Shown: positions 244 through 21,468 of the stretch, piece by piece
Layout of the letters: every line of letters begins with the position of its first letter
Position numbering within the stretch: the stretch's first letter is position 1
Virus record (IMG/VR): IMGVR_UViG_3300036979_000109
Location: 1 to 21,468 of that record
From: a virus
Reading direction: 5' to 3' (one strand)
DNA: 21,468 nucleotides
The notes under the pieces: generated by a model
Told to the model about the DNA's origin: nothing
Seen by the model: only the letters and a program-made list of their open reading frames with translations
Database searches by the model: none
Made by a program: the position numbers and the translations under genes

Positions 244-1092
244 TTAGCCCTTGGCCTTCTGCTTCTTATACTGGAAAACCTTTGAATAGTCGCCAGTCTT
301 TTCTGCTTCAGACCGCAGGCGGTCTAGGGTGCTGTCAACCGCGCCAGACGGACGGGCAGTGCCGCTGATCTTGCGCTCGGGTGACGATTGAGCCTTACGG
401 TTCGAGATTTTCAACTGCGTCTCCAATTTCGCAACCGCGAAGGCGAACTTCACGGGATCTGTGATGGAAGCGATTTCCTTCGCCTTTTTCGGGTTCTTGC
501 CCAGAGCATAAACGACGAGGGCCGGGTTGTCGGCGCCTTGCAAAATCATGCCCTGCTGCATGACGCTGAGATTGTCTTGGACGACATCCTCGGCGAACTC
601 GAAGTCACGCACCTTCAGGCCGGCCTTCGCCCCCTGATAGCTTTCCAGCTTGCGCTCCCATTCTTTCTGAACGGCTTGGTGTTCAGACTTTACGGCAGCC
701 TCGCGCTCGTCATGCTGGCGCTTCTTCTCATACCACGCAGTCAGATCCTTCTCATATCGGTCAGTGTCGTAATCGGCTTTCTCAAGCGTTGGCTTCGGTC
801 CAAGGGGCGCGACCCCAGGTGTGTTCCGCTGTTCGACCTGTGCTAGACGCTGTTCCAGTTCCTTGGCACGACGTTTCTCTTCACGATACTGCTTGCGAAG
901 ATCCCGGACCCAATCAGGGGCGCGGGCTTCCTCATCTTCCTCCGGGGCTGGCGCTTCCCCGTCAATCGAAATCACAACCTCTTCGTCTTCTGCTTCGGCC
1001 TCATCGCCTTCGGCCATCTCGGCCTCGTCAACTTCGGTTTCTTCAGTTTCGACTTCAAAGTCCTCTTCGATCTGTTCTGCCAATTCAGTCAT
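244..1092 (-). CDS. capsid scaffolding protein
   Basis: A 282-residue protein with the composition expected of a phage scaffold. Residues 1-60 are extremely acidic and contain no obvious fold. Residues 60-90 and 120-160 are charged heptad-like helices (predicted coiled coil). The C-terminus is a short basic helix ending KVFQYKKQKAKG, the kind of tail that contacts coat subunits in P22-like scaffolds. It lies between portal and coat genes, exactly where scaffolds sit. The ATG at 1092 is preceded by GAGGA. It would act in the host cytoplasm, guide coat assembly, and leave the procapsid before or during packaging. No protease domain is visible. The function rests on composition and position, since scaffolds conserve little sequence. 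Confidence 0.78.
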   Translation of the reverse strand: MTELAEQIEEDFEVETEETEVDEAEMAEGDEAEAEDEEVVISIDGEAPAPEEDEEARAPDWVRDLRKQYREEKRRAKELEQRLAQVEQRNTPGVAPLGPKPTLEKADYDTDRYEKDLTAWYEKKRQHDEREAAVKSEHQAVQKEWERKLESYQGAKAGLKVRDFEFAEDVVQDNLSVMQQGMILQGADNPALVVYALGKNPKKAKEIASITDPVKFAFAVAKLETQLKISNRKAQSSPERKISGTARPSGAVDSTLDRLRSEAEKTGDYSKVFQYKKQKAKG

Positions 1093-1117: not shown

Positions 1118-3178
1118 TTACATTGTGCGGCTGGGTGGTTGCCGCATTCCGGGGGCGACGGCTTCTTGCAGAGCCTTCGCCGTGTTCACTACGTTGGTGC
1201 GCTCTTTCTGCTGAATGCCAGCAAGCACCTCGACGGTCTTGGCGCGGGTTTCTTCCGCACGCGCCAAGGTGTATTCTGTGTTGGCCTGAGCCTGGCCTGC
1301 CTTGGCCTGCGCTTCCATCGCGGCAGCTTGCAGATACTGCGCCTGCGGATCGGGCTGCTGCGCGGCCTGCATCTCGGCCAGCAGCTTCTCGCCTTCCTGC
1401 TCGGTCGGCTGGATGACGCCCATCTTGATGAGCTTGTCGCGGAAGTAGGCGCGCACCTCGCCGATGCCCTCGCCGTCCATGTTCATCATGGCCATCGATG
1501 TCAGCACCTGCTGCGTCTCGGGATCGGGCGCAAGCTGGATCATGCCCAACAGCGCGCGAACCGTGGCGCTGCGCTTGGTGGCGCTGGCCGGGCCGACTTC
1601 AACAGCCACGTCGAACTTGGCGTTGCTCAGGTCGTTTTCGTATTCCACTTCGCCGGTTTCGACGTTCAGGATCGGCTTGCCCATCTCAATGCTGGACAAC
1701 TCACCGCCGACGCCCACGGCCTTCATCTTGCGGCCAGGCTCGACAAGGATGTCGCGCGCCATCGAAAGCCAGATCTCGCCGCAACGCTTGATCGCCTTTG
1801 ACATGTTCGACATGTAGATGAAGGTCTGCATGTCCAGGCGCTGCTGGATCAGTTCCACAGCCTTGCCGCTGACGTTGGAGACGACTTCCTCGGCAGCGTC
1901 GGGCTTGCCCAGCAGATCGCTCATGTCCTGCTCGGTGATCTGCAACAGGCCAGCCAGCGCAGGCGGGATCTGCGGCGGCTTGGTGTAGCCGACTGGGCCA
2001 GACAGAACCTCGCCGCCATTGGCGTCCGTCACGGTGTTCAACAGCAGGTAGGGATAATTCCGCAGGTTGTCCTCGGACCACATCATTTCGTGGCCGGCCA
2101 CCTGCTCGGGCGTGAAGATCGGCTTCTCAACGGTCGAGAGCGCGCTGATCTCGCCCAGCTTGGAAAGCTGCATGTTCTTCAGCCGCTGGGCATCCTTGGC
2201 CAGACGGACGTGGCCCATGCACCGCTCGATGTTGTCCACGAACCAGCGCTTGCCGTAGACCGGGACAATCGGGATCTGGTCGCCGGCAATGTAGCCGCTG
2301 TCTTCCAGCACCTTGCCGCCAGACATGATATACTTGCGAACCTTGCGGCGCTTGACGCGGCGCTGGCGGACCTCTTTGGTGCCGACAGCCTCCAGCATCA
2401 TCTCGAGTTCTTCGTCGTCCTCGAAGTCCTTTTCGGAATACTTTTCTTCCTGCCCGTCGATGGTCTGGAAAATGCGGATGGTTTCTGACGCCTCCTCGAC
2501 GCGGTAGACCTCGGCCACATAGACGACATCAGGCGTGGCCCAGTCAAAGGCCCACTGCTCAATGCCCTTCGGCCAGGTGGTCGGGTCGTCATCCCATGCG
2601 GCCCGGTACGCGTCACGGGTCATCGCGGTCAGAACGTAGCACAGCCGCGCGTCGGCCTTGTCTTGGCGCTTGGCGTCCAGATCAAAGAACACCGTGCTGT
2701 CGGCGTCGTAGATCGGCTCGATGCGGATGCGCTGCTTTTCGTTCTCTTCGTCGTATTCGTCCTCATAGACGGCACGCAGGCGGAACGCACCGAAGCCGCC
2801 GCCGACGGCCTCCTCGAATGCGTTATCGTAGGCCTCGTTGGAGCCGCTGTCCTGCTCGTCGGCCCGGAACAGCCCATCGCACACGTCGGCCAGCTTGTCG
2901 TCGGCTGTGCCGTCCTTGCTGACAAAGTCAACCGTGATGCGGTTGTTGCGGTATTCGTTGATGATGCGCATGACGGCGAGGTGGACCTTGTTCACCTCGA
3001 ACTTGGGCTTGTTCAGATATTGCTCATAGAGGTTGCCCTCCCACTGCGCGCCGGCGATGGAGTAGAAGCGGCGATCCTCCAGGCACTGCAAACGCTCATC
3101 GCGCATCACGCCCTGGATGTCGTCGAACTCGGCCAATGCTTCTGCATGGACGTTTGCAAGCCGCTGGTCTTTGGTCAT
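1118..3178 (-). CDS. P22-type portal protein
   Basis: A 686-residue protein that forms the dodecameric portal at one capsid vertex, through which DNA enters and leaves. Its length is close to the roughly 700 residues of P22 gp1-type portals. Visible family features are an N-terminal helical region with EFDDIQGVMRDERLQCLEDR, a stem/clip region with conserved acidic segments, and the block SDLLGKPDAAEEVVSNVSGK followed by a long helix (about residues 420-480). The C-terminus is an Ala/Gln/Glu-rich helix (about 600-680), as expected for the barrel that projects into the head. A TTG nine bases upstream (3187) is in frame, but ATG 3178 is preferred. The gene follows terL with a 66-base gap and is followed by the scaffold gene. 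Confidence 0.93.
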   Translation of the reverse strand: MTKDQRLANVHAEALAEFDDIQGVMRDERLQCLEDRRFYSIAGAQWEGNLYEQYLNKPKFEVNKVHLAVMRIINEYRNNRITVDFVSKDGTADDKLADVCDGLFRADEQDSGSNEAYDNAFEEAVGGGFGAFRLRAVYEDEYDEENEKQRIRIEPIYDADSTVFFDLDAKRQDKADARLCYVLTAMTRDAYRAAWDDDPTTWPKGIEQWAFDWATPDVVYVAEVYRVEEASETIRIFQTIDGQEEKYSEKDFEDDEELEMMLEAVGTKEVRQRRVKRRKVRKYIMSGGKVLEDSGYIAGDQIPIVPVYGKRWFVDNIERCMGHVRLAKDAQRLKNMQLSKLGEISALSTVEKPIFTPEQVAGHEMMWSEDNLRNYPYLLLNTVTDANGGEVLSGPVGYTKPPQIPPALAGLLQITEQDMSDLLGKPDAAEEVVSNVSGKAVELIQQRLDMQTFIYMSNMSKAIKRCGEIWLSMARDILVEPGRKMKAVGVGGELSSIEMGKPILNVETGEVEYENDLSNAKFDVAVEVGPASATKRSATVRALLGMIQLAPDPETQQVLTSMAMMNMDGEGIGEVRAYFRDKLIKMGVIQPTEQEGEKLLAEMQAAQQPDPQAQYLQAAAMEAQAKAGQAQANTEYTLARAEETRAKTVEVLAGIQQKERTNVVNTAKALQEAVAPGMRQPPSRTM

Positions 3179-3244
3179 GCGGGCCAAGGTGCGCGCCTTT
3201 CGCTGGATATTTGGGCCGAAGTATACGGCAGGACCATTAGAATA

Positions 3245-4474
3245 TCAATGCCGTGCCATCGGCATCATCACAGGGACGAGGCGAGGCTTCGCCTTCTCCT
3301 GCTTGCCCGCCCGGCGTGCGCCTTCGCAGGCATAGCGCAGGGCGTCGATGACGTGGTTTTCCTTGTCCTCCAGCATCGGCAAGATGCTGCCCGTGTCGCG
3401 GTCGGTCTTGTAGCTGTAGAGCGTCAGTTCATCGATGGTGTGCTTGCAGCGGGGATGCACCACGATGTCAAAAGACTTCAGCCATTCCACGCCCTCCTCG
3501 ACCGACTTCGGCCCTTTGACGGCGGGCTGGATCTTCGGGAAGCCGTTCTTGCGCATATGGCTGATGGTCTCAGGACGGGCGCTGTCGGCCACCATCGGCC
3601 AGCGTTCAGCGTCAGGGATCGTCATAAACAGCGCCGGCGTGTCCACGATCTCGCAGCCGACCTGGTAGGCTTCGTGGTCAATATATAGCTTCCGTCCTAT
3701 AATGTGGCAGCGCACGCCAACGGTCGGATCGGTGGCAAAGCCCCAGTCGGCGCCGAGGCGATGCACGGCATCTGGCGGTGCCTCAAACTCTTCAATGGCC
3801 CAGTTCTTGAACACGCGGGTTTCGCTGTTGCGGACGTACTCGCCCTTCCAGACGTGCATGTATTTGTCAGGATCGCGCCGCTTGTCGTATTCCATTTCCT
3901 CGCGCAGCACCTCGGGAAACCAAGGGTTGTCGCTGTAGTTGACCTCGATCACCACCGTCTTGTCAGGCGCTCCAGGCCCACGCAGCAACTGCTCGATCGG
4001 GTCAGTGTCGTATCTCGGGTTCCATGTAAACCAAAGCTGCGATGCGGGCTTGCGGATGGTCGGGCGCAGGATGTCCAGCGAGAACTGGCTGATCGATTGC
4101 GCCTCTTCCACCCACGCGATGTCGAAACCTTCCAGCGACTTGATGCTGTCTGCCGTGTGGTTCTGCATCCCCTGGAACACGATCACGCCGCCGTGGACAG
4201 ACTTGATCTGCGTCTGCTGGATCTCGAACATGTGGCCAACGCCCATCTCCTCGATCTTGTTCTCGATCAGCTTCTTGACCGACTGGGCCAGAGACTTCTG
4301 CACCTCGCGCACGCAGACCGCGTCAACCTTTTCGCTGACGCTGCGCTCAATCAGCATCTCTGCGAAGAAGTGCGACTTGCCTGAGCCTCGGCCACCGTAT
4401 GCCCCAAGATAGCGGGCGTCTGGGCGCTTGAGGATCGGCAGAGACCAGCGTGGGGTCTTTAGCTGGAGTTTCAT
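3245..4474 (-). CDS. terL: terminase large subunit
   Basis: A 409-residue packaging motor with N-terminal ATPase and C-terminal nuclease. The Walker A motif is GGRGSGKS (residues 27-34). Walker B is FDIAWVEEAQ (about 117-126), ending in the catalytic glutamates. The coupling motif is SQLWFTWNPR (about 145-154). RNase H-like nuclease acidic residues appear in GADWGF (about 241-246), VADSARPE (about 297) and ENHVIDALRY (about 373-382). The arrangement fits the Terminase_3/PBSX and Sf6 gp2-like group. ATG 4474 overlaps the TGA of the preceding gene as ATGA, which argues for translational coupling; an in-frame GTG at 4501 is less likely. It should cut concatemers and drive DNA into the portal encoded next. 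Confidence 0.95.
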   Translation of the reverse strand: MKLQLKTPRWSLPILKRPDARYLGAYGGRGSGKSHFFAEMLIERSVSEKVDAVCVREVQKSLAQSVKKLIENKIEEMGVGHMFEIQQTQIKSVHGGVIVFQGMQNHTADSIKSLEGFDIAWVEEAQSISQFSLDILRPTIRKPASQLWFTWNPRYDTDPIEQLLRGPGAPDKTVVIEVNYSDNPWFPEVLREEMEYDKRRDPDKYMHVWKGEYVRNSETRVFKNWAIEEFEAPPDAVHRLGADWGFATDPTVGVRCHIIGRKLYIDHEAYQVGCEIVDTPALFMTIPDAERWPMVADSARPETISHMRKNGFPKIQPAVKGPKSVEEGVEWLKSFDIVVHPRCKHTIDELTLYSYKTDRDTGSILPMLEDKENHVIDALRYACEGARRAGKQEKAKPRLVPVMMPMARH

Positions 4475-6942
4475 TGGGGTCCGACTACTAACTGGTCCCA
4501 CTGGCTGGGCGGAACTGCGATTGAGATCGCCTCTTCAATGTCGCGCCGAGAAACGCCAAGGATTTGAGCCGCGCCGCTGACACCAGACTGCTTGACGAGA
4601 TCCATGATCTGCGTCTCTGGCGTCCCAGCTTCTGCGTCGTCACCGAGAGCCGTCAGCACGGCAGCGCCACCAACGCCGGCGCTTAGGTTGCGGAGGTGGC
4701 GAAACTCAGGGTCGAAAAGAGCGAAGCGAGAGCGGATGCGTGTTGGGTCAGTCATCGCCAATGCAAGCCCGCTTTCGTCCTGCATGGTGAAGCCAGTGTT
4801 GCCAATGGATTTTGTGTAATCAGAAATTGGCCTCTCGCTCATACCCTCTGAATAATGCGCGAACTGCTTACCAGAAATGTCTGATCGCAGGTTGGGACCG
4901 TAGGACAATGGCTGCTTAGGCCTATATTTTATAATCCCTTCAGGGATAGGGGCGTCTGGATTGGCGTCTCTGAATTTTGTTAAAGCATCGTAATCAGTGA
5001 GATCATCAAAGAAATACGTCCAATTTCCGTAACGAGGGGCCATATCGGATGCCATAAGGGCGTCCACTTCAGCTTCAGTGTAGATACGATCTGGCAACGA
5101 TGCGCGGAATTCATTCATGTCCTGCCTGCCATACGCGCCAAGACCTTCAACCCTGCTTGTGTCGACCCTAACCGGCATGGTTATTTTTGAGCCAGATCCG
5201 ACCCCCTCATTAGCACTTGCAGACGCACCGCGCGCCGCGCCTTCAGGTGTCGGGCCAAAAAATGAAGCCCCTCGGAACTCGCTTGGAATAAACTTCTGAA
5301 AGTCTTTTCCTGTCGAATGATATGCGGTGTCAGGAAAATATTGATCCGCCCGCGCCATCCGGCTGGCATAATCCATCGGCAGGGGCGTGTTGAGATACAT
5401 GTATTGCGGGTCAGCCGCTGCCCTCATCTGATCTGTCACCTCGCCAGCCCGCCCTTCGGCGCGAAGCTGTAGGATGTCGCGCGCCATCGCTTCAGCCTCG
5501 TTGCGTGGGGTTGGCAGGGCTGGCGCCGCTGGCGCAAGCCGCTCCTGCATGGCAGGCGAGACCATGTTGACAGACGACATCTCATCAATGTCTGCGAACA
5601 CTTCTTCGAGGGTCGCGTCTGGCTTGCCCGGTGGTCTGCGCCCGAGGCGATATGCTGTCGTTGCTGCCGCCTTGGATGACACCTGCCCGCCCATCATCGG
5701 GAAGTCCTGCATCACGCGCTCTTGCAGCGTCTGGCCTATGCCCTGGCCGCGAGATGCTTCCGGCACCTCCAACTCAAGAACAGACGCGCTTCCGTCAGGA
5801 CGCACGACAACCTCAATGGTGCCGCCGCTTTGCGGGTCGGTGTATCTGACCCGCTCAGAGCCTTCGCCGAAAATGTTTGATGCGTCACGGCGTGATACAT
5901 CGAGCGGCGCGCGCTCAGTTCCAGCCCCGAAAAGGGCTTCAAATTCAGCATCAATCTCTGGAGAGGATGAAGGTCGCGCTGCCGCTGTTGGGGTCTCTGG
6001 AGCCTTGAAGCCCAATCTTTGATCTGCGTTTGGACCGGCAAACGCCTTAAACCCACCGCCAAACCTATCAGCGGCTGTTGGCACCAGCCCAAGTCTCGGG
6101 TTGCTGACAAATTCGGTGAACTCTTGCCCAGCCTCGTTCTGAAGTTTGTAGCCAAAGATATTTGGGTTTTGCTGGTCAACCCAGTATCCAGAAACGCGCA
6201 AGTCTGAACCCATCTCATAAGTAGATGGGGGCGATACTCTCGTTCCTACTCGAAGGGGAAGGTTGCCAGACTTGTGAAGTTCGAACGCATTTTCATCTAG
6301 TCTGGCCTGATATGCGCCAGACGACACGTCTTCAATGGCACCTTTGACTTTTGAAATAAGATCCTGCCTTGCCCGTTCTTGCCTGAATTGCCCCAAGTTC
6401 ACAGGCTGCTCTTCCTGCATCGCCCTGGCGACATCATCAAACGTCAACGGAGGCCGTCCAGGCCCACCACCCGGCAGCGCCCCGCTTTCGCTGCGTGCGA
6501 ACTGCGTTGCCATATCACCAGCCGCTTGGCGTGCCGGCGAGAACCCCAGCAGCCCCTCCATCATCGCGCTGGCCGCTGGCACGCCGATAGCCTTGGCTGC
6601 TGCGATAGGCGCGGCGATGCTGGCCACGCCTGACACCATCTCGCCCAAAGATGCGATGCGGTCCCAGTAGCTTTGATCGGGCGCCAACATGCGAGATCCG
6701 GCACGCATGGCGCTGCCGATGCCTTCGACCGGGTTGAACGTCTGGTTCAGGAACGCAAGCCGCTCGGTGACGCCGTTGCCGATGTCGAGGATGCCCGGCG
6801 CTGTGCGGCGCGGCGCCATCGTGTCGCCAGGCTCATCCACGCGCACCCACTGACGGCCTTCTGGCGCAGGGGGGACGGGGCCAGCGTTTGGGTCGTTGCT
6901 GTCCCAGACTGCCTGCCCTGTTGCCGGATCGATCAGCTTCAT
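4471..6942 (-). CDS. phage polyvalent protein: GNAT-like + ADP-ribosyltransferase-like + C-terminal HTH
   Basis: An 823-residue multidomain protein encoded between the terminase subunits. Residues 1-60 are Pro/Gly-rich. Residues 95-135 are Ala-rich and hydrophobic. Residues 250-290 look like a small beta domain. Residues 365-437 resemble a GNAT acetyltransferase: beta strands, then the acetyl-CoA loop RGQGIGQTL (398-406) and a late SSKAAATTAYRLGRRPPG segment. Residues about 541-745 match phage ADP-ribosyltransferase polyvalent domains: AYHSTGKDFQKF, then GASFFGPTPEGA, and the diagnostic ending IRSRFALFDP (736-745). A helix-turn-helix-like AAQILGVSRRDIEEAI (791-806) ends it. Such proteins are thought to be packaged and injected to modify host proteins. 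Start ATG 6942 lies 3 bases after terS. GC dips around 4780-5060 and 6000-6380 suggest mosaic origin. The ART call is firmer than the GNAT call; targets are unknown. Confidence 0.75.
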   Translation of the reverse strand: MKLIDPATGQAVWDSNDPNAGPVPPAPEGRQWVRVDEPGDTMAPRRTAPGILDIGNGVTERLAFLNQTFNPVEGIGSAMRAGSRMLAPDQSYWDRIASLGEMVSGVASIAAPIAAAKAIGVPAASAMMEGLLGFSPARQAAGDMATQFARSESGALPGGGPGRPPLTFDDVARAMQEEQPVNLGQFRQERARQDLISKVKGAIEDVSSGAYQARLDENAFELHKSGNLPLRVGTRVSPPSTYEMGSDLRVSGYWVDQQNPNIFGYKLQNEAGQEFTEFVSNPRLGLVPTAADRFGGGFKAFAGPNADQRLGFKAPETPTAAARPSSSPEIDAEFEALFGAGTERAPLDVSRRDASNIFGEGSERVRYTDPQSGGTIEVVVRPDGSASVLELEVPEASRGQGIGQTLQERVMQDFPMMGGQVSSKAAATTAYRLGRRPPGKPDATLEEVFADIDEMSSVNMVSPAMQERLAPAAPALPTPRNEAEAMARDILQLRAEGRAGEVTDQMRAAADPQYMYLNTPLPMDYASRMARADQYFPDTAYHSTGKDFQKFIPSEFRGASFFGPTPEGAARGASASANEGVGSGSKITMPVRVDTSRVEGLGAYGRQDMNEFRASLPDRIYTEAEVDALMASDMAPRYGNWTYFFDDLTDYDALTKFRDANPDAPIPEGIIKYRPKQPLSYGPNLRSDISGKQFAHYSEGMSERPISDYTKSIGNTGFTMQDESGLALAMTDPTRIRSRFALFDPEFRHLRNLSAGVGGAAVLTALGDDAEAGTPETQIMDLVKQSGVSGAAQILGVSRRDIEEAISIAVPPSQWDQLVVGPQ

Positions 6943-6945
6943 TCG

Positions 6946-7353
6946 TCAGTCCTTCGGATCAATGATGACGCGCTCGATCTTCTGGATGATCGCGCCGCCG
7001 TCTGGGCCGCTGTGTTCGCTCTTCACCGTGTCGTTCCAGTCCGCACGGAAACGGTTCTTCATGTTGAAGATCCATGCTGTTGCGTTGAAGCCGTCGATTT
7101 CGCCCCTTACGCCCTTCAGACCAAGACGCTCCCACTCAAGTTTTTGCAAGCGTAAAGCCTCTGCCAGCTTTTCGGAGGGGAAGTCTTCGGGGAACTCAGC
7201 CATGTATCGCTCAACTGTATCCCAATCAGCCAGTGGGAAACTTGCCTTTGAGAAGCCTTCCGCCAAATGTGAGCAAACAGCCTCGCACGCCGCTTTGCGT
7301 TCTTCTGGTGTCTTCCACTTGACGTTGAAGTTGTTGTTCTTAGGAGCGGGCAT
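6946..7353 (-). CDS. terS: terminase small subunit
   Basis: A 135-residue DNA-recognition subunit of the packaging complex. The N-terminus MPAPKNNNF is the familiar opening of Sf6/P22-style small terminases. Residues 15-45 form a charged helical region, and the C-terminal third contains FNATAWIFNMKNRFRADWND followed by SGPDGGAIIQKIERVIIDP, a combination seen in many phage small terminases. It would bind the pac or cos site and recruit TerL. It is the second gene of the late packaging operon, overlaps the GIY-YIG gene by 14 bases and ends 3 bases before the polyvalent-protein start. TerL lies one gene further on rather than directly adjacent, which is unusual. The call is from sequence recall plus position. 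Confidence 0.85.
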   Translation of the reverse strand: MPAPKNNNFNVKWKTPEERKAACEAVCSHLAEGFSKASFPLADWDTVERYMAEFPEDFPSEKLAEALRLQKLEWERLGLKGVRGEIDGFNATAWIFNMKNRFRADWNDTVKSEHSGPDGGAIIQKIERVIIDPKD

Positions 7354-7861
7354 CTATCGCTTCCCTCCATGCTTTGCATTGTCCGCCGATGGCGCTTGCT
7401 GCGAAAATATCAGAAAACCTCTTCTCAAGCGATAGCCTGTCTTGCTGTGATAAGGTTGCGACGTGACGCTTCAACCACTCGCACGACTGTCCGAAGGCAT
7501 TGCGCATGTGACGCATGTATATTGTTGACGGCAACTGCAGACCAGCGACGGCCCAAGGCTTTGTGCTTTTTGCATACCGCAGCGCCTCATCCTTGCTGAG
7601 TATAAGGTTTACCAATTCAGATCTTGCTGAGATTTCCTCAAATTCAGCTTCAGTCAGATTGTCTGGATCATCTCTCAAAACTACTGGGTTGACGCCGTGC
7701 AAAAAAATCATATCGGCCAATCCGCCGTTCTGATGAAACCTGCCAGATTTATAGGCCGAAATACGTTTTTTTAGGTTTTTGGTTTGACCAACGTAAAAAA
7801 CTTTTCCGTCTCGGTCCACCAACCCATAAATTACGCCTTTCGTTGATCTTCCAAGCGGCAT
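7340..7861 (-). CDS. GIY-YIG family endonuclease (homing-type, free-standing)
   Basis: A 173-residue protein. Residues 9-40 carry the GIY-YIG core: VIYGLVDRDGKVFYVGQTKN, with Y12 and the YVG triad at 24-26, followed by KKRISAY with the catalytic Arg (R33). The metal-binding Glu probably lies in TEAEFEE (70-76). Residues 90-173 are helical, of unknown fold, and may recognise DNA. Free-standing GIY-YIG enzymes are commonly mobile homing nucleases, and packaging genes are a frequent insertion point. It is the first gene of the late operon after the terminator at 7928-7957. ATG 7861 follows AAGGTGGG. It is more AT-rich than its neighbours, consistent with transfer. It could also assist DNA processing at the packaging site. 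Confidence 0.85.
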   Translation of the reverse strand: MPLGRSTKGVIYGLVDRDGKVFYVGQTKNLKKRISAYKSGRFHQNGGLADMIFLHGVNPVVLRDDPDNLTEAEFEEISARSELVNLILSKDEALRYAKSTKPWAVAGLQLPSTIYMRHMRNAFGQSCEWLKRHVATLSQQDRLSLEKRFSDIFAASAIGGQCKAWREAIDARS

Positions 7862-20922: not shown

Positions 20923-21468
20923 TTACTTCAAATTGAACTGCTGTAGGATAGCATAAGGATCGTATGCCGCCAGTGCATCCGACTGCGTGCTGCGCAGTTG
21001 TGGAAGCCGGAACATAGGCATCTGAGCCGTCGAGGCGATGCCGTAGTCCTCGCCGGCAGGTTGACCCATCGCCAGCGGCAGGTTGGCCGACCGACCATTG
21101 AAGGCGCGATCAGCGGCGCCCGTGCCGAGGATCTTGGCAACGTAGTTCTGCGTTTCCTCGAACGGCGGGACACCACCGTATTTGCGCACATTGCCGGGGC
21201 CAGCGTTATAGGCGGCCAGGGCCAAGCGCGTGTCACCAAACTCATCAAGCTGTTCGCGCAGGTATCTAGCACCGCCGCGCAGGTTCTCTTCAGGGTCCAT
21301 AGGATCAACGCCGAGATACTCGGCTGTGCCTGGCATCAATTGCGCCAGACCCAACGCGCCGGCAGATGACACGGCGTCGGGGTTGAAGTTGCTTTCCTGT
21401 TGGATCAGCCGCAAGAACAGATCGGGGTCAACACCTTCCTCGCGGGCGGTAGCGGTGGCCATCTCAAT
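20923..21468 (-). CDS. SLT-type lytic transglycosylase, probably C-terminal part
   Basis: At least 179 residues. [20 protein letters not shown] carries the catalytic Glu (E23 from the ATG at 21462). [10 protein letters not shown] (35-44), the AYNAGPGNV motif (84-92) and ETQNYV (103-108) complete the Slt70-like pattern. Residues 120-179 are unstructured. The frame stays open to the right edge and no ribosome site is visible before ATG 21462, so the protein probably extends upstream, perhaps as a virion-borne enzyme that opens the wall during DNA entry. It is the first visible gene of the lysis block and ends 17 bases before the membrane/coiled-coil gene. Confidence 0.85.

Follow-up and report, generated by a model that had tools for sequence, protein, structure and literature searches.

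Gene content and organization of the locus

The window analyzed here is a 21,468-base virus fragment (IMGVR_UViG_3300036979_000109), whose minus strand carries packaging and head genes of a P22-like phage. These encode a terminase small subunit (TerS; 6946..7353; phrog_309, E = 3.5e-10), a terminase large subunit (TerL; 3245..4474; PF04466, E = 9.6e-38), a P22-type portal protein (1118..3187; PF16510, E = 7.5e-160), and a head scaffolding protein (244..1092; phrog_648, E = 3.4e-58). Exactly between TerS and TerL, which form the upstream and downstream borders of the slot described below, lies the open reading frame (ORF) of a polyvalent-type effector (4471..6942, minus strand; 823 amino acids plus stop). 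Its ATG is found 4 nt past the TerS stop, and its own stop codon overlaps the ATG start of TerL by 4 nt (ATGA). The initial annotation had placed an 823-residue protein at 4522-6942 and named no strand; the length held, while the true span is 4471-6942 on the minus strand. The motifs it listed occur in the order it gave, with RGQGIG at residues 398-403 (nt 5751-5734), YHST at 541-544 (5322-5311), and RSRFALFDP at 737-745 (4734-4708).

Searches with the single protein against Pfam, PHROGs, NCBIfam, and PDB sequences returned no significant match. Two matches, one to T2SS_GspK in NCBIfam (E = 0.009; 15.6 bits, cut-off 130) and one to CatAgl_D1 in Pfam (E = 0.19), fell far short of cut-off and were dismissed. 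Relatives were recovered from other viral contigs in four overlapping scans (30, at least 80 [the best 80 of 107], 53, and 42 loci). This conservation, together with dN/dS values of 0.04-0.10 for the GNAT module (usable in 7 of 33 pairs, the rest being saturated), argues that the ORF is not a chance reading frame. A broken or frameshifted gene was likewise rejected, as the frame is single and intact and dN/dS is well below 1. Outside viral contigs, neither the full protein nor the GNAT-A alignment had a confirmed relative in 84,980 bacterial and archaeal genomes, nor did the GNAT module in plasmids, in scans that were seeded from a few short peptides and that distant copies can escape.

Modular architecture and the GNAT domain

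In an AlphaFold2 model of the protein (72-row alignment, mean pLDDT 64), residues 1-30, 341-520, and 781-810 were the best-predicted regions (block means 75-97). The constant N-terminal module (residues 1-156; 6475..6942, minus), referred to as Nb, is encoded by DNA shared with four phages that carry different payloads. It was predicted as a short confident beta hairpin followed by hydrophobic Ala/Gly-rich helices at about residues 92-135, the latter with low confidence, and the Kyte-Doolittle maximum of the module is 1.62 at residues 103-121. Module U1 (residues 187-342; 5917..6384, minus) has no Pfam match, and a stand-alone homologue of it is gp66 of Roseobacter phage CRP-902 (32% identity). 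The segment LNK (residues 481-540; 5323..5502, minus) is a conserved flank ahead of the ADP-ribosyltransferase (ART) core with the pattern GRAxEVT...LPMDxASRxARA. The C-terminal tail (residues 757-823; 4474..4674, minus) is helical, and its final part is common to proteins with a different ART type. A C-terminal helix-turn-helix, as had been suggested for this region, was not borne out: Pfam gave no match, the best PDB profile match had E = 1.7, and the predicted model contained helices only.

GNAT acetyltransferases bind acetyl-CoA through motif A, with the pattern R/Q-x-x-G-x-G/A. RGQGIG at residues 398-403 satisfies this pattern and lies within the GNAT-A module (residues 343-468; 5539..5916, minus); R57, G58, G60, and G62 were invariant across the 11 rows of GNAT alignment A1. 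The Pfam family PF14542 matched the window protein at E = 0.018 with 15.6 bits, under the Pfam cut-off of 30. In the first set of relatives scanned it matched 5 of 10 at E<=0.05 (best 1.6e-4) and in the second 1 of 10 at E<=0.01, all of them again under the Pfam cut-off. One carrier of GNAT-A, L016, had no Pfam match at 0.05, and L116 had no GNAT match at 0.01. A profile of 11 GNAT-A copies matched YjdJ (5i0c), a small GNAT of known structure, at E = 0.007.

Residues 341-470 were modeled by AlphaFold2 with block means of 75-97, and comparison of the model region 342-421 with the PDB returned mainly acetyltransferases, including RimI. The best structural match had Z 7.8 over 72 residues (rmsd 3.4), a value below 8 and thus in the zone where the comparison tool warns of common arrangements; the best Foldseek match to the PDB had E = 0.013 (prob 0.99), with none under 0.001. 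We accepted the GNAT fold despite the Z score because the motif and the profile matches agree with it. The module is 64-99% identical among proteins with several different N-termini. Motif, relatives, predicted fold, and selection therefore agree on a maintained, travelling GNAT domain, confirming the acetyltransferase-like segment of the initial annotation.

A probable ADP-ribosyltransferase domain

The ART-like domain (residues 541-745; 4708..5322, minus) ends in the conserved flank RSRFALFDP. The published polyvalent ART family is described as having H-Y-D catalytic residues (Iyer et al. 2017, PMC5512222). In ARTs of the Tox-ART-HYD2 type, the His belongs to strand 1, the Tyr to strand 2, and the Asp to strand 5. 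In the window protein, the predicted first catalytic residue is H542 (5317..5319, minus), and 54 of the 61 cassettes tabulated have H there. The second position, Tyr in the consensus of the ART-PolyVal type, is occupied by F561 (5260..5262, minus). The candidate third residue is D732 (4747..4749, minus), at a position that is D in 33/61 cassettes, S in 11/61, and N in 6/61. This table was built by regular expression, and a few of its rows are misplaced (e.g., L076). H542 falls within a predicted strand (539-544), and D732 lies two residues past another (725-730), at an end where the alignment is uncertain.

The window protein had no match to Pfam ART-PolyVal (PF18760) at E<=0.01 or E<=1, and a genome-style search for the same family found none, as was also the case for all 14 of its controls. 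Among related cassettes, 18 of 45 matched ART-PolyVal at E<=0.01, the best at 1e-7. Alignment by hhalign of the 45-cassette profile with a profile of eight clear ART-PolyVal-type proteins gave E = 7.7e-5 and a probability of 61.8% over 37 columns only; in this alignment the catalytic His is paired with H542, and F561 replaces the Tyr. Modeled in isolation, the domain reached a pLDDT of 70 and a pTM of 0.62, with a disordered stretch near residues 677-700. The top Foldseek match of this model in the PDB was AcrIF11 (6kyf; E = 7.5e-3, prob 0.99, 10% identity in the structural alignment), none being under 0.001, and the low end of the list held unrelated folds (phosphofructokinase and others).

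VIA-align listed 50 rows for the ART model, of which 40 were tankyrases and 10 were single or paired others: ParT and NatRT with two each, and MbcT, AcrIF11, Xre-RES, SAIP, VPA0770, and a cyanophage A4 ejectosome chain with one each. The ART fold is common to ParT, MbcT, NatT, RES domains, and PARPs. Among the rows listed, Z was at most 7.8, which is below 8 and not decisive, and for this reason we graded the ART fold as probable rather than proven. This grade rests on the relatives, the short profile-profile alignment, and the predicted fold rather than on the sequence of the window protein by itself. We set aside the match to the cyanophage A4 pre-ejectosome chain (9k3a_B; Foldseek E = 0.023, Z 6.5): it is without sequence support, since the profile of the second ART type (ART-2) retrieved nothing from the PDB but designed helical proteins and comparable spurious matches, and our literature search found nothing on this fold match.

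The ART-like region of the initial annotation thus stood in part, with the relatives' ART-PolyVal matches, the profile alignment, and a fold predicted at moderate confidence in its favor and the failure of the window sequence to match ART-PolyVal against it. The same is true of the catalytic residues, as the H and a candidate D are present but the Tyr position holds Phe. Structure prediction, which that annotation had proposed as a check, yielded both folds, the GNAT and, at moderate confidence only, the ART.

The ART scan covered the best 80 of 107 relatives, and 60 of 61 cassettes were separable into flanks and core. Between the window cassette and the 59 others, median identity was 56% in the upstream flank, 75% in the downstream flank, and 26% in the core. 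Clustering of the cores gave 23 groups at an identity threshold of 40% and 8 at one of 30%. For the pair with locus L158, the one ART pair of six with dS below 1, dN/dS was about 0.07; three other pairs, with dS of 1.3-2.2 and different cores, gave dN/dS of 0.29-0.43, and the remaining two were saturated.

Payload exchange at the TerS-TerL junction

The TerL scan took the best 80 of 437 relatives, and adding loci from earlier scans gave 138 loci with a TerL start. After 43 with less than 78% TerL identity were dropped, the other 95 reduced to 52 distinct loci once those sharing one sequence across the 600 bp surrounding the TerL start had been collapsed. In this set (TerL at least 78% identical; drawn from the best 80 of 437 and the other scans), 33 slots were filled, 7 were empty, and 12 had no recognizable TerS. 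In the empty slots, the TerS stop overlaps the TerL ATG with the same ATGA junction, and TerL is 78-85% identical to that of the window. Every one of the 33 filled slots had one of two N-terminal modules, either Nb, the type of the window (17), or N22 (16). At least one module was held in common with the window by 23 of the 32 other inserts, and the remaining 9 share the alternative N-terminus; an unrelated moron gene was rejected on these grounds. L194 and L204 were counted as filled, although what is left of the insert there is short (160 and 67 aa), and in L185, L193, L203, and L207 the insert ORF ends 100-150 nt ahead of the TerL start, without overlap.

Five phages whose TerL DNA is 95-97% identical to that of the window carry different inserts, and their portal DNA is 95.6-97.1% identical over the 76-100% covered. 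Four of them (L157, L159, L160, and L002) match the window at 94-98% identity over 85-100% of the first 468 bp of the gene, and 0-25% of the remainder is covered; the 25% belongs to L002, in which GNAT-A is shared. The fifth, L185, has an altogether different insert protein of the N22 type. Phages that are 95-97% identical in TerL and portal DNA therefore differ in the insert, and they differ in TerS as well. Behind the Nb N-terminus, the window carries U1+GNAT-A+ART-1. The same type of N-terminus precedes GNAT-A+ART-1 in L158 (where TerL is cut off at the contig end), GNAT-B+GNAT-A+ART-2 in L002, ART-2 in L160, U5 in L157, U8 in L159, and GNAT-C+ART-1 in L163. Payloads are thus exchanged behind a constant N-terminal module in a single slot. 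GNAT-A and the ART cassettes were also found in other phages at other positions, so they are not tied to this slot, one among several places where they reside.

We tentatively propose, at somewhat less than even odds, that the TerS-TerL junction is, in a group of P22-like phages, a dedicated slot in which enzyme cassettes are exchanged as units behind one of two constant, virion-directing N-termini, together making up a polymorphic injected anti-host system. Part of the same tentative proposal is that the catalytic core of the ART cassette is freely replaced while its flanks stay conserved. The exchange slot with its swapped payloads, the main point of this analysis, is invisible from the window sequence alone.

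Comparison with known systems

Polyvalent proteins were named by Iyer et al. 2017 (PMC5512222), who included two GNAT families among them; one of these is described as typically neighboring an ART in the same polypeptide, as in BAR32501.1. A GNAT+ART polyvalent effector is therefore already established as a kind. The window protein combines unrelated enzymatic domains in one polypeptide, as polyvalent proteins do with two or more, its GNAT being firmly and its ART probably identified. Its gene lies near virion genes of a portal-terminase phage, inside the packaging and head cluster, and the polyvalent-effector reading of the initial annotation accords with the published examples. The window family differs from them in its constant N-termini, its exchanged payloads, and its fixed TerS-TerL position. 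In this respect, polyvalent proteins were described as not following the layout of secreted toxins, with an N-terminal delivery domain and a variable C-terminal toxin (PMC5512222). A 2022 survey (PMC9503650) notes that ART genes frequently lie close to those for terminase and portal, and that the ARTs are likely packaged. In the titles and abstract openings of the open-licence literature searched, we recognized no published account of a TerS-TerL slot of this kind, with payloads exchanged behind constant N-termini at a single site.

Another comparison is with the MuF polymorphic toxins that Jamet et al. 2017 (PMC5576092) described in temperate phages. Like the window family, these have a constant N-terminus, a variable payload, and a place in the phage packaging module. 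They are reported to carry a MuF domain and to be encoded next to the portal gene, in most cases with small ORFs behind them that were interpreted as immunity genes. The window effector had no Pfam match to MuF at E<=1. Whereas MuF genes come just after the portal gene, the window gene sits between TerS and TerL, and it has no downstream immunity ORF, TerL starting inside the effector stop.

AcrIF11 is an ART that protects phages by modifying a CRISPR complex, and in one homologue activity is reported to be lost on mutation to H20A/Y46A or to D146A/E147A (PMC12421852). It is thus a phage ART directed against host defence, as well as the top Foldseek match of the ART model, but it differs in being a small stand-alone protein (137 residues in 6kyf) without a GNAT. 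Alt of phage T4 is described as a head-packaged, injected ART that acts on host RNA polymerase (PMC5512222); the likeness is by description. Alt belongs to the R-S-E clade of ARTs, and T4 is a different type of virus. A review of ejection proteins (PMC8954989) reports functional domains swapped between phages, a parallel to the payload exchange seen here.

Proposed function and alternative explanations

The explanation that we favor, with moderate confidence, is an exchangeable effector that is built into the virion and ejected with the DNA, its GNAT acetylating and its ART ADP-ribosylating host proteins early in infection. The family is lodged between terS and terL, where a constant N-terminal module carries interchangeable payloads, here U1, GNAT, and ART. 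The effector would be expressed together with the packaging and head genes, would probably be incorporated into the head, and would leave it along with the DNA. In the first minutes of infection, the GNAT may then acetylate, and the ART ADP-ribosylate, proteins of the host defence or gene-expression machinery. By analogy, an AcrIF11-like counter-defence role would be one concrete possibility for the ART domain. In three relatives (L015, L116, and L175), Nb occurs in one protein with a phage tail-lysozyme domain, and these fusions, together with the position among packaging and head genes, suggest a virion-associated protein that is ejected with DNA. A Pfam search for a metallopeptidase domain able to release the effector domains found none, which counts against the injected-effector explanation. 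The lack of an immunity ORF beside the window gene, together with the empty slots, argues for a dispensable anti-host tool rather than a weapon toxic to its maker or a part that packaging cannot do without. The weakest links in this explanation are ART catalysis, given the Tyr-to-Phe replacement, and virion packaging.

Packaging is what separates this explanation from one in which the protein is a late, unpackaged product that acts in the producing cell, through superinfection exclusion or late modification of host proteins. The slot adjoins the genes for terminase, a protein that is not itself part of the virion structure, and payload exchange would also be compatible with phage-phage competition. 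However, a protein made late would have little time in which to affect the host, the fusions of Nb to tail-lysozyme domains speak against an unpackaged late protein, and published contextual reasoning leans to packaging, so that we regard a late intracellular product as unlikely. The stop/start overlap with TerL and the 4-nt spacing to TerS suggest coupled translation, and one of two N-terminal modules is kept in 33/33 inserts of the 52-locus set, as might be expected if the protein had an accessory part in packaging or morphogenesis and used its enzyme domains on phage proteins such as terminase, portal, or scaffold. Yet the gene is missing from seven relatives (TerL 78-85% identical), in which TerS abuts TerL, and payloads differ among phages with TerL and portal DNA 95-97% identical. 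These two facts make the payload at least dispensable for packaging, and a morphogenetic role is accordingly quite improbable.

The injected effector might also have the GNAT as its sole enzyme, with the ART part a degenerate, non-catalytic fold used in binding. Such decay would account for F561 where a Tyr is expected, for a third position that varies among D (33/61), S (11/61), and N (6/61), and for a window sequence that misses the Pfam ART-PolyVal model. On the other hand, 54/61 cassettes keep H at the first position, and the dN/dS of about 0.07 against L158, the single pair of six with dS below 1, points to constraint on the ART. An aromatic residue can stack on nicotinamide, and F561 could therefore still do so. 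On balance we consider a purely binding ART rather unlikely, and prefer the two-enzyme form of the injected effector.

If the injected-effector explanation is true, reading the ORF between terS and terL would list the counter-defence arsenal of a phage group, and payloads could be matched to hosts, as phages 95-97% identical in TerL and portal DNA differ at the slot. The payloads U5, U8, and U1, which have no Pfam match, would be candidate new effectors. Should the dedicated-slot proposal hold, the family would connect MuF-type polymorphic toxins to polyvalent proteins, and the cassettes exchanged within it would amount to a natural inventory of counter-defence enzymes.

Relatives in isolated phages

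The ART module also has relatives in isolated phages, gp6 of Octadecabacter virus OANV2 and gp5 of Sulfitobacter phage phiGT1, whose genes both sit among terminase, head, and tail genes, a further indirect pointer to delivery with the virion. The former carries the same LNK-ART cassette type as the window. The latter (QLB38217.1) is a relative of the ART-2 type, and its GenBank annotation names BAR32501 as closest. Virion proteins of phiGT1 were identified by mass spectrometry, and gp5 is not named in the main-text passages on these proteins (PMC10386132); the term "mass spectrometry" is absent from the main text of the OANV2 paper (PMC9239159). With OANV2 gp6 and phiGT1 gp5 available in isolates, both packaging and ADP-ribosylation are testable now.

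Mosaicism of the terminase small subunit

In five phages with a TerL 95-97% identical to the window's, matches at 93-98% identity spanned only 15-37% of the DNA of the TerS gene. Judged by sequence comparison, TerS is thus itself a mosaic, both in the window (6946-7353) and in the related contigs, and an SEHSGPDGG...DPK tail recurred among divergent TerS proteins. An ORF for a GIY-YIG endonuclease (7340-7861, E = 5.5e-7) overlaps the start of TerS and adjoins the slot, i.e., the TerS-TerL junction of P22-like phages in which the window carries its 823-aa effector (4471-6942, minus strand).

Payload diversity and exchange at the slot

Two further large payload families occupied the same slot, namely U5 (445 aa, in L157/L186) and U8 (622 aa, in L159/L188). 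Neither U5 nor U8 had a match in Pfam, and U8 did no more than graze phrog_2563. The L194 and L204 slots retained the effector only as short remnants of 160 and 67 aa, respectively, as if payloads had been lost by deletion. In locus L171, near 8298, the 18 nt preceding the TerL start are shared with the window (4471-4500). The protein end differs from that of the window despite these common 18 nt, the retention of which in L171 may, on sequence grounds, mark an exchange boundary.

Elsewhere, in other phages, a tail lysozyme domain (Phage_lysozyme2) is followed in the same fusion protein by Nb, the constant N-terminal module of the window's effector, and payloads (L015 2211-4508, L116 4528-7086, and L175 5819-10375). 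Both ART types occur in one 1,921-aa protein (L113 5944-11709): its residues 20-263 form a cassette of ART-1, the type found in the window, and its residues 1594-1877 a region of the ART-2 type.

Similarities to pre-ejectosome and internal virion proteins

Across 137 residues, the predicted structure of the effector's ART-like domain aligned with a pre-ejectosome protein of cyanophage A4 (PDB 9k3a, chain B), at a Z of 6.5 and an rmsd of 4.2. If chain B does have an ART fold, an ART would lie within a solved ejection machine. Separately, a transglycosylase (SLT) ORF truncated by the window end (20923-21468) resembles the proteins of phrog_342 (E = 9.7e-24), which are internal to the virion and have an endolysin domain.
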